A stretch of 31,874 bases of DNA from a virus. Positions within the stretch are counted from its first letter, which is position 1, and each line of letters begins with the position of its first letter. The notes under the pieces are model-generated. The model ran no database searches. It saw only the letters and a program-made list of their open reading frames with translations, and was not told the origin of the DNA. The stretch spans positions 1 to 31,874 of the IMG/VR virus record IMGVR_UViG_3300020156_000068; one strand, given 5' to 3'. Positions 11,328 to 21,370 of the stretch are shown piece after piece. The translations under genes and the position numbers were made by a program.

Positions 11328-11360
11328 TAACGAAAAAGAAAAGGCTCCAGTGAGGAGCCT
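11328..11360 (-). terminator. Intrinsic terminator overlapping primase stop
   Basis: The 7-bp stem AGGCTCC/GGAGCCT (11342-11348 with 11354-11360) overlaps the primase stop codon and is followed on the minus strand by a T-rich tract (TTTTCTTTTTCG). Confidence 0.8.
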
Positions 11361-11982
11361 ATAGATGCCACTTAGGAGGCAACAGTACGTCGCTTCCTAG
11401 TGAAATGTAGCCGATCAAGCGGCCATCTGCTAAACGCAGTGGAAGAGCTAAACGCCCTTTGTGGTGGCCTCTTGGTGCATAACCTAGACCTAAAGACTGG
11501 GCGATCTCTGGTGGAAACCCCAATGCTTCTACGGTCGGGTGTGCTGGCTCAAGATAGGGTAGCTCACGGAAACCACGTTCCATTGAGCTACCCGTCTCCT
11601 TCTCTTCGGGAGCTTTGTTCTCCTCTGCGGAGAAATTGTTATTGGACATTCCTTTTGGCTGGTCGGGCTTTTGTCCGGCTGGCCTTTTTTCCGCTAACTC
11701 TTTGAAGACGGCGTAGGGTTTCGATTGGCGAACGTGAGCCAGTAGGCCGACACGATCACCACCTACTTTTTCACCGAAGCAATAAAATACTCCGGCGTTC
11801 CCCTTTTCGTCTGGTTGGTCGGGTGTGACTACCAGACTGCGCTTGCCGCCTTTGTGTACCGGACATTCGCAACGGTACGACTTGCCATCTTTCTTAAACG
11901 GCAAGCCCGTCATATCCATCAACTCTTCTATCGAGTAGGAGAGTAGTATGGCGGTAAAATCTAGGAACGGGACGTTACCCAC
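11359..11982 (-). CDS. Truncated CHC2-type primase protein without toprim
   Basis: This 207-residue protein starts at GTG 11982 with AAGGAGG eight bases upstream. The N-terminal domain shows the CHC2 zinc-finger layout: C-E-C-P-V-H (about residues 38-43) and G-V-F-Y-C-F-G (about 65-71). The usual final cysteine after this point is replaced (CFGEKVGGD), so one zinc ligand may be missing or supplied by the extra Cys in CEC. The C-terminal part (GRLALPLRLADGRLIGYISL) resembles the primase core entry. The protein ends before any toprim catalytic motif. It may recruit a host primase, bind DNA, or be degraded; there is no second primase gene here. Confidence 0.7.
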   Translation of the reverse strand: MGNVPFLDFTAILLSYSIEELMDMTGLPFKKDGKSYRCECPVHKGGKRSLVVTPDQPDEKGNAGVFYCFGEKVGGDRVGLLAHVRQSKPYAVFKELAEKRPAGQKPDQPKGMSNNNFSAEENKAPEEKETGSSMERGFRELPYLEPAHPTVEALGFPPEIAQSLGLGYAPRGHHKGRLALPLRLADGRLIGYISLGSDVLLPPKWHL

Positions 11983-12034: not shown

Positions 12035-12219
12035 ATGGTGTGTTGTCCCCGTGGGTTCGCTCGATAGGTTACTGCGAACATCTGGACTTGCTACCTTAAA
12101 TGGTACGGCTGATGAGACATTAGTCGAAACGGAGCGTTGTTGCTCCGTCCCGTGGAGTTTCCCCAGCAAGTGAATAACTGGAAACCTTAGCCTATCGCCC
12201 TTCGGGGACAACACACCAT
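12035..12219 (+). ncRNA. Structured RNA carrying a hammerhead ribozyme
   Basis: A perfect 17-bp helix (12035-12051 with 12203-12219) closes the element. Inside are CGATAGG/CCTATCG (about 12062-12068 with 12191-12197) and ACTTGCT/AGCAAGT (about 12086-12092 with 12165-12171), then a small hairpin TACC/GGTA and a complete type I hammerhead core (12105-12153). The nested helices extend stem I, so the ribozyme sits at the tip of a long arm. There is no matching open frame. The RNA lies upstream of a second structured stretch and the 70-codon gene on the same strand. The closing helix after cleavage would hold both halves together. Confidence 0.75.
12105..12153 (+). ncRNA. Type I hammerhead ribozyme core
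   Basis: All conserved parts are present in order: stem I strand ACGG (12105-12108), CUGAUGA (12109-12115), stem II GAC-AUUA-GUC (12116-12125), GAAA (12126-12129), stem III with A15.1-U16.1 and CGGAGC/GCUCCG around a 6-nt loop (12130-12147), U then C at 12148-12149, and stem I strand CCGU (12150-12153). Predicted self-cleavage is after C12149 (GUC). Stem II has only 3 bp, short but possible. Stems II and III are capped and stem I is open, making it type I. Confidence 0.8.
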
Positions 12220-12238
12220 AGAGTTGTAGGTTGATGGG

Positions 12239-12422
12239 GGACGGAGCAATACGCAGGAAGCTACTATCCGTCGCGCGGTTCGTGTCCTAGGCACGCTGAT
12301 CCGTAGCTGAAATAAATGCGCGGTTCCCCACCAGCCTATAACCACAGACGTTTGTTGATGACCGTGTGAGAGCGCGAACCTCTTGGTAATCGTTCGCCCA
12401 CGGTTTCACCAGCAAATGTCTG
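12239..12422 (+). ncRNA. Second structured leader RNA before the 70-codon gene
   Basis: Between the hammerhead element and ATG 12438 there are nested arms. CAGACGTTTG pairs with CAAATGTCTG (12345-12354 with 12413-12422, one wobble), enclosing ACCGTG/CACGGT (12361-12366 with 12399-12404) and GCGAAC/GTTCGC (12374-12379 with 12392-12397). The upstream part has GACGGA/TCCGTC and two copies of GCGCGGTTC. The ending TTTCACCAGCAA...CTGGAAA resembles the hammerhead element's TTTCCCCAGCAA...CTGGAAA, hinting at a related fold. The AAGGAG of the gene follows the outer stem directly. Confidence 0.5.
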
Positions 12423-12437
12423 GAAAGGAGAAGTACA

Positions 12438-12650
12438 ATGGCTAAGAACAACGCACCTGTACACACCATTCGCATCGGGTATGTGAAAGCCAGTATTTGG
12501 CAGAACGGCGAACATCACAACGTTACGGTCGTCCGCGCCTACAAGGACAACGAAGGCAAGTGGCAGGACGGCGATTCGTTCTCCCACGGCGACCTGCCTA
12601 CGCTGGCGAAAGTCGCAGAAATGGCGTGTGACTGGATCAGCGAACAATAG
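12438..12650 (+). CDS. 70-residue conserved small protein
   Basis: ATG 12438 has AAGGAG seven bases upstream. The pattern HTIRIGYVKASIWQNGEHHN, then RAYKDNEGKWQDGDSFSHGD, then LPTLAKVAEMACDWISEQ matches a widespread small bacterial family seen in several phyla whose function I cannot name with confidence; two beta strands and a C-terminal helix are apparent. It is a single plus-strand gene following two structured RNAs and ending in its own terminator. It may be expressed from the lysogen, since it opposes the lytic genes. Confidence 0.7.
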   Translation: MAKNNAPVHTIRIGYVKASIWQNGEHHNVTVVRAYKDNEGKWQDGDSFSHGDLPTLAKVAEMACDWISEQ

Positions 12651-21309: not shown

Positions 21310-21370
21310 CAGAAAGTGTTGAAAAATATGGGCTTTATGGTTGGTATGGTGTGGTATGAGGAGATTGCGG

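Follow-up and report, generated by a model that had tools for sequence, protein, structure and literature searches.

Introduction

Type I hammerhead ribozymes (Rfam RF00163) occur in phages and prophages, and examples flanking phage genes are documented to cut polycistronic RNAs of ~2 kb (PMC3088659). The RAGATH-1 hammerhead (RF03152) has a short stem II and a hairpin 5' of stem I. Type-SGC hammerheads (HRIMA-1) combine a hammerhead core with pseudoknots and natural permutation (PMC10085705). Phages and prophages also encode the non-coding RNAs GOLLD and ROOL. These are hundreds of nucleotides long, fold elaborately, frequently lie in the vicinity of tRNA islands and form nanocages (PMC12286853).

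Here we describe an RNA element in a viral record of 31,874 nucleotides (IMG/VR IMGVR_UViG_3300020156_000068; the whole stretch is referred to as the window). The element shares its invariant core, stem order, UH cleavage site and phage context with type I hammerheads. However, the ribozyme module here occupies a loop of a separate RNA that has a conserved double-pseudoknot fold of its own, with the cleavage site always 4 nt ahead of the sequence GGAGU. RAGATH-1 is the best, though weak, hammerhead match in Rfam and has the short stem II and 5' hairpin in common with the element. The match stays below its gathering score, and the 3' block and pseudoknots lie outside the RAGATH-1 model. Compared with GOLLD and ROOL, which are similar in their phage setting, frequent proximity to tRNA islands and elaborate folding, the core is small (~100 nt), contains an inserted hammerhead and has natural circular permutants. 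The GOLLD and ROOL models matched neither the window, at gathering scores, nor six phage loci, at E values up to 3. In type-SGC RNAs the hammerhead itself is permuted, whereas here an ordinary type I hammerhead sits in a host RNA that is permuted. A type-SGC hammerhead was ruled out since the blocks run CUGANGA, GAAA, cleavage site (C-G-S) and not S-G-C. The element joins two open questions: the role of hammerheads in phages and the purpose of structured RNAs in phage tRNA islands.

Results

A complete type I hammerhead in a phage genome

The window encodes a major head protein, terminase, integrase, exonuclease and primase. The element is flanked by the primase gene and a gene of 70 codons (Table 1). 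The only tRNA of the window is at 21350, so this copy lies outside any tRNA array.

An earlier note, made from the sequence alone, had described a full type I hammerhead core in the right order with a GUC cleavage site at 12149. Reading the sequence again, we could place every part between 12105 and 12153 of the + strand, and the predicted site is the same. Stem III, with its A15.1-U16.1 pair, is also present, but it has 8 bp and not the 7 bp given before. The CUGANGA and GAAA core, three helices, the A15.1-U16.1 pair and a nucleotide other than G at H17 are those of a type I ribozyme. So is the topology; the chain enters and leaves through stem I, which is open, and loops close stems II and III. 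Stem I runs into the pseudoknot described below, and no standard loop-loop pair between stems I and II was seen in the window.

Table 1. Features of the locus, in window coordinates.
Feature	Position	Strand	Basis or remark
Primase gene	11359-11982	-	one flank of the hammerhead element
Whole element (E1), double-pseudoknot RNA with inserted hammerhead	12035-12219	+	helices, covariance model, fold z
P1 5' strand, 17-bp closing helix	12035-12051	+	perfect pairing
CGUGGG, core start	12050-12055	+	invariant in 40/40 aligned members
P2 5' strand, GUUCGC, pairs 12074-12079	12055-12060	+	pairing, covariation
c, within P2 loop, pairs c' 12188-12197; first pseudoknot	12062-12071	+	family pairing
P2 3' strand, GCGAAC	12074-12079	+	pairing
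Conserved CAUCUGG	12079-12085	+	CAUCU invariant in 40/40
a, ACUUGC, pairs a' 12166-12171	12086-12091	+	six of six positions covary
Stem I, CGG(+A)/CCG(+U)	12105-12108/12150-12153	+	sequence
CUGAUGA	12109-12115	+	sequence
Stem II, GAC/GUC, loop AUUA	12116-12118/12123-12125	+	sequence
GAAA	12126-12129	+	sequence
Stem III, 8 bp including A15.1-U16.1	12129-12136/12141-12148	+	sequence
Cleavage triplet GUC	12147-12149	+	sequence
Predicted cleavage, C17 (12149)/12150, 4 nt 5' of GGAGU	12149-12150	+	family-constant distance
GGAGU, 5' edge of conserved 3' block	12154-12158	+	invariant
b, GUUUCC, pairs b' 12180-12185; second pseudoknot	12157-12162	+	100% paired in 94 members; three variable positions covary
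a', GCAAGU	12166-12171	+	pairing, covariation
GAAUAACUG, largely unpaired	12172-12180	+	invariant
b', GGAAAC, and invariant ACC	12180-12186	+	pairing, invariance
c', UAGCCUAUCG	12188-12197	+	pairing
P1 3' strand	12203-12219	+	perfect pairing
70-codon gene	12438-12650	+	other flank of the hammerhead element

At gathering scores, Rfam reported only the tRNA in the whole window. Below threshold, RF03152 matched at 24.6 bits (E 0.066, cut-off 56.3). The search with hammerhead models proposed in the earlier note did find RF00163, at 15.5 bits and thus under its cut-off of 34. Note that this cut-off is a score and not a structural feature; the model, of 45 positions, left clear hammerheads (e.g. at locus L093) unreported. 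A full hammerhead descriptor run over 886 kb of fetched loci returned the window hammerhead and only two other believable ones. The element is also far more stable than shuffled sequences (folding z = -6.85). The hammerhead element is therefore far beyond chance, and activity in vitro is very likely.

The hammerhead is held in two interlocked pseudoknots

The perfect 17-bp closing helix, P1, was correctly recognised before. The extra helices inside it were taken to be nested, and this is wrong. Instead, P2 crosses c-c' and a-a' crosses b-b'. The resulting helix order is P2, c, P2', a, b, a', b', c', which places one H-type pseudoknot inside another.

A family of phage RNAs shares the core

A scan of viral sequences for similar hammerhead cores yielded more than 100 phage hammerheads. 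Among 232 cores (the listed loci and the window), only that of locus L180 has an enclosing helix longer than the window's, at 22 bp. Outside the hammerhead, L180 is homologous to the window (CCGUGGG, CAUCUGG, CGYGGAGU, GAAUAACUG and ACC). The same conserved block was spanned by a weak blastn match to Enterobacter phage SDFMU_EhYP. Searches from L180, and then from Mycobacterium phage Gaia, led to Arthrobacter phages Constance and Karkharias and to phages of M. abscessus, Pectobacterium, Dickeya and Microcystis. The conserved core consists of CGUGGG, CAUCUGG, GGAGU, GAAUAACUG and ACC, all at fixed places in the window.

We expressed the family as the pattern GGAGU-N3-C-N9-GAAUAACUG-N3-ACC, which matches at least 120 viral loci or contigs. 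The listed matches include phages of Arthrobacter, Mycobacterium, Microcystis, Enterobacter and Pectobacterium. The core is also present in 15 of 5,426 E. coli genomes, in one case between the antiterminator Q gene and a holin gene. In the window the pattern lies at 12154-12186; by chance no match is expected in the window (none in 100 shuffles). A covariance model built from 40 other members, with the window left out, found the window at 12050-12199 as its sole match there (95.9 bits, E 2.2e-26). This model also finds copies that have no hammerhead. Conversely, the core was absent from the plasmids searched and from PaP3, a phage known for its hammerhead, and a viral search with the pattern CTGATGAGACNTTNGTCGAAAC gave no match.

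We are almost certain that the window copy belongs to this GGAGU-GAAUAACUG double-pseudoknot family, as defined here. Judged by sequence, this phage RNA is widespread, and the window has one copy of it. In Rfam 15 it matches nothing except the hammerhead itself, below threshold, and the open-licence literature holds no description of the core; a description could exist in a subscription journal or preprint. On this basis the family is probably new.

The fold is supported by covariation

Fold statistics were taken from 94 distinct copies among the matches listed, using features outside the search pattern. P2 is paired at 98.7% (67% when shuffled) and a-a' at 99.1% (69% when shuffled). The figure for b-b', whose invariant letters belonged to the search pattern, is 100% (78% when shuffled). 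Across these helices, with pairing of 98.7-100%, all four Watson-Crick types occur. The c-c' helix has at least 7 bp in 82 of 93 listed copies, against about 8.5 when shuffled, and P1 measures 5-23 bp in most other listed copies.

The 40-sequence alignment, which omits the window, was scored for P2, a-a', b-b' and the hammerhead stems. Here, 99.6% of cells are paired. There are 203 two-sided changes, compared to 44.8 in shuffled alignments, and covariation is 0.635 compared to 0.155. The signal collapses when partners are slid by one column. Both crossings, made by P2, a-a', b-b' and c-c', are thus borne out by the helices of the window and by covariation in the family.

The hammerhead is an insert at a fixed position

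An intact hammerhead is found in ~65 of the 94 distinct listed copies (about 70%), and the CUGANGA/GAAA core is unchanged in 65. These were counted by script; one more copy, at L306, is intact by eye. Two copies (Gaia and L266) have UUGAUAA, and a few are decayed. In all 67 hammerhead-bearing listed copies the cut position is 4 nt before GGAGU, as in the window (12149/12150 versus 12154). A further 20 of the 94 listed copies lack the hammerhead altogether and have a linker of 6-7 nt in its place. Spacing between a and GGAGU is thus bimodal (6-7 nt in 20 copies and at least 42 nt in most others), which marks the hammerhead as inserted into a different RNA. The earlier note had held that relatives without CUGAUGA/GAAA would count against the ribozyme. 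Such relatives exist, in these 20 copies, and the hammerhead is not thereby false. A tree of the core, drawn from too few columns, needs at least 15 changes in hammerhead presence, but only two of them are forced by strongly supported branches. Repeated gain or loss across the family is therefore possible.

The element could be a natural allosteric ribozyme, in which the double pseudoknot binds a ligand and controls the hammerhead by way of stem I. The pseudoknot is joined directly to the short stem I, and the unpaired GAAUAAC and the CAUCU are invariant in the manner of a binding site. However, about a fifth of the listed copies retain the core with no ribozyme to gate, which argues that the core is useful without the hammerhead, and there is no constant metabolic gene beside the copies. 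We regard this explanation as improbable.

Circular permutants

Ten distinct listed copies, and also L323 (which was not parsed), are circularly permuted. Their chain opens with the hammerhead, continues through P1, which here forms a central hairpin, and ends with a. The predicted hammerhead cut would trim the 5' end exactly at the nick point of the standard form. The ten natural permutants indicate that continuity of the chain at the hammerhead is dispensable and that the fold tolerates ends there. Mainly for this reason, we infer that the cut matures the RNA and does not destroy it. The existence of permutants is not, on its own, proof that the nicked standard form is active.

Permutants would also fit a circular RNA, or a selfish viroid-like unit made through the hammerhead, and a circularising RNA had been suggested for this locus. 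However, rearrangement of DNA can also produce permutation. Each copy has a single cleavage site, and no tandem units were seen. A link to the RtcB ligase was rejected because its gene was recognised in only one of the 129 listed loci. This route is highly improbable. Of the three roles proposed before, a stable nicked RNA is the best supported, by the predicted cut in a loop of the double pseudoknot and by the ten permutants.

Many copies lie beside tRNA genes

A tRNA is found within 500 nt of 33 of the 129 listed member loci, on the same strand in all 33. Often, the copies are within tRNA arrays and on the tRNA strand; those of Gaia and of M. abscessus start beside tRNA-Ser. In 8 of 83 listed copies an upstream tRNA or T-arm abuts the element directly, and these have only a short P1 (p = 0.003), as if tRNA processing replaces P1. 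The neighbouring genes of the listed copies show no enrichment, no recurring gene and no constant metabolic gene. In 59 of 90 cases the downstream gene shares the strand of the element. Intrinsic terminators follow 5 of 93 listed copies, a weak enrichment over random stretches (10 of 930). Hence, most copies are not simple promoter-RNA-terminator genes. The absence of a recurring neighbour, the variable downstream strand and the tRNA-adjacent setting point to a stand-alone RNA.

Compact pseudoknots can block nucleases. The hammerhead could thus cut polycistronic phage transcripts, as documented for other phage hammerheads (PMC3088659), while the pseudoknot protects the resulting ends against exonuclease attack. 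The location between tRNAs and late genes would suit such a role. Against it, many neighbours are on the opposite strand and copies without the hammerhead persist. Furthermore, P1 would keep the two sides tethered, since the cut is internal to the fold. We consider this very improbable.

Position of the window copy upstream of the 70-codon gene

Downstream of the window copy come two further structured arms and then the 70-codon gene; given this position, the copy may share a transcript with them. It could open the 5' leader of the gene as a cis-acting switch, with cleavage setting mRNA stability or translation. The arrangement of element, two arms, Shine-Dalgarno sequence and gene fits such a leader. 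Moreover, a motif similar to the promoter/operator region of relatives, GTACYAT...TGGTGTATTAT, lies directly 5' of the element. At relative L008 an arm of GGUGUGUGG and CCGCAC, with a tRNA-like tip, occupies the same leader position, and P1 of the window begins GGUGUGU. However, a consensus scan found no σ70 promoter in this region of the window. The element is absent from all searched relatives that share the primase/small-gene arrangement, and in other listed copies the downstream gene and its strand vary. Relatives of the 70-aa protein and of DUF932 contained, on searching, only a different family of leader arms. A processing switch for the 70-codon gene, as put forward in the earlier note, is thus unsupported, and a leader switch of any kind is unlikely.

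A two-piece non-coding RNA

The explanation we favour, and think probable, is that of a stand-alone phage non-coding RNA whose maturation by the hammerhead yields two pieces, held by pseudoknots and acting in trans or as a stable particle. The RNA would comprise a core of ~100 nt plus the hammerhead, with two interlocked H-type pseudoknots that either an outer helix or flanking tRNAs would close. The type I hammerhead, inserted in a surface loop between helix a and GGAGU in the window copy as elsewhere, would cut during transcription, 4 nt 5' of GGAGU, leaving a 2',3'-cyclic phosphate and a 5'-OH. P1, c-c' and a-a' would keep the halves together, so that the mature RNA would be discontinuous. 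The core would then work in trans or as a stable particle and not as a leader switch. For instance, it might bind a protein or the ribosome as a particle, or serve as a decoy produced alongside the tRNAs of the phage.

What the sequences show is the family, its fold, the conserved hammerhead and where it sits, the permutants and the location in tRNA arrays; that the RNA is cut in vivo, that its nicked form persists and that it acts in trans are parts of the proposal. A two-piece RNA in vivo seems reasonably probable, and action in trans is slightly favoured. For the full statement, of an undescribed and widespread phage class, permutants included, whose hammerhead yields a two-piece trans-acting RNA during infection, we judge the chances to be even. 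If true, an RNA that its own ribozyme splits and that pseudoknots hold together would be unusual. With its hammerhead-bearing, hammerhead-less and permuted copies, the family is a natural experiment on the contribution of self-cleavage. Members occur in culturable phages (Arthrobacter phage Constance, whose hammerhead is intact, and M. abscessus phage phiGD24-3) and in E. coli prophages, which puts deletion, 5'-OH mapping and pull-down within reach.

Other RNA features

Phage hammerheads are very common. One hammerhead pattern scan gave at least 120 viral contigs (L113-L232), many of which have multiple hammerheads, of types I and III. In other phage contigs, strong hammerheads at L093:2454 (+) and L090:6032 (+) lie within about 600 nt of DUF932 genes; Rfam reported neither, even at E up to 1.

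A separate RNA feature, different from the hammerhead element, is seen in the leaders that lie between the gene for primase and the small gene on the + strand. They occur at 12228-12341 and 12344-12422 of the window and in L002, L004, L008, L021, L024, L025, L027, L038, L039 and L110. Each opens with a long arm, GGUGUGUGG...CCGCAC, in which CCCGC of the 3' strand can alternatively pair with GCGGG beside the Shine-Dalgarno sequence. In L110 all three strands are altered jointly (GUGUGA/CUCGC/GCGAG), which suggests a two-state leader. In L008 (2885-2959, +) the arm ends in a tRNA-like structure that scores 32.4 bits with the Rfam tRNA model; ARAGORN calls no tRNA there. The second arm of the window (12240-12308, +) has two crossing 6-bp helices, GACGGA/UCCGUC and AGCUAC/GUAGCU, possibly a further pseudoknot, and matches nothing in Rfam. 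A sub-threshold match to RF00043 at 12359-12445 (24.7 of 55 bits) was set aside, as it rests largely on the Shine-Dalgarno sequence and start codon.

Beside the primase gene, the 70-codon gene alternates with a second small family (A-W-x5-DGIS-x4-LxALP), as seen at window 12438-12650, L002-L008 and L024-L044. Relatives of the 70-aa protein are found on planctomycete and alphaproteobacterial plasmids. Finally, one phage contig (L025:4470-4533, +) has a near-threshold match to the suhB/mmgR sRNA family, at 37.5 of 41 bits.
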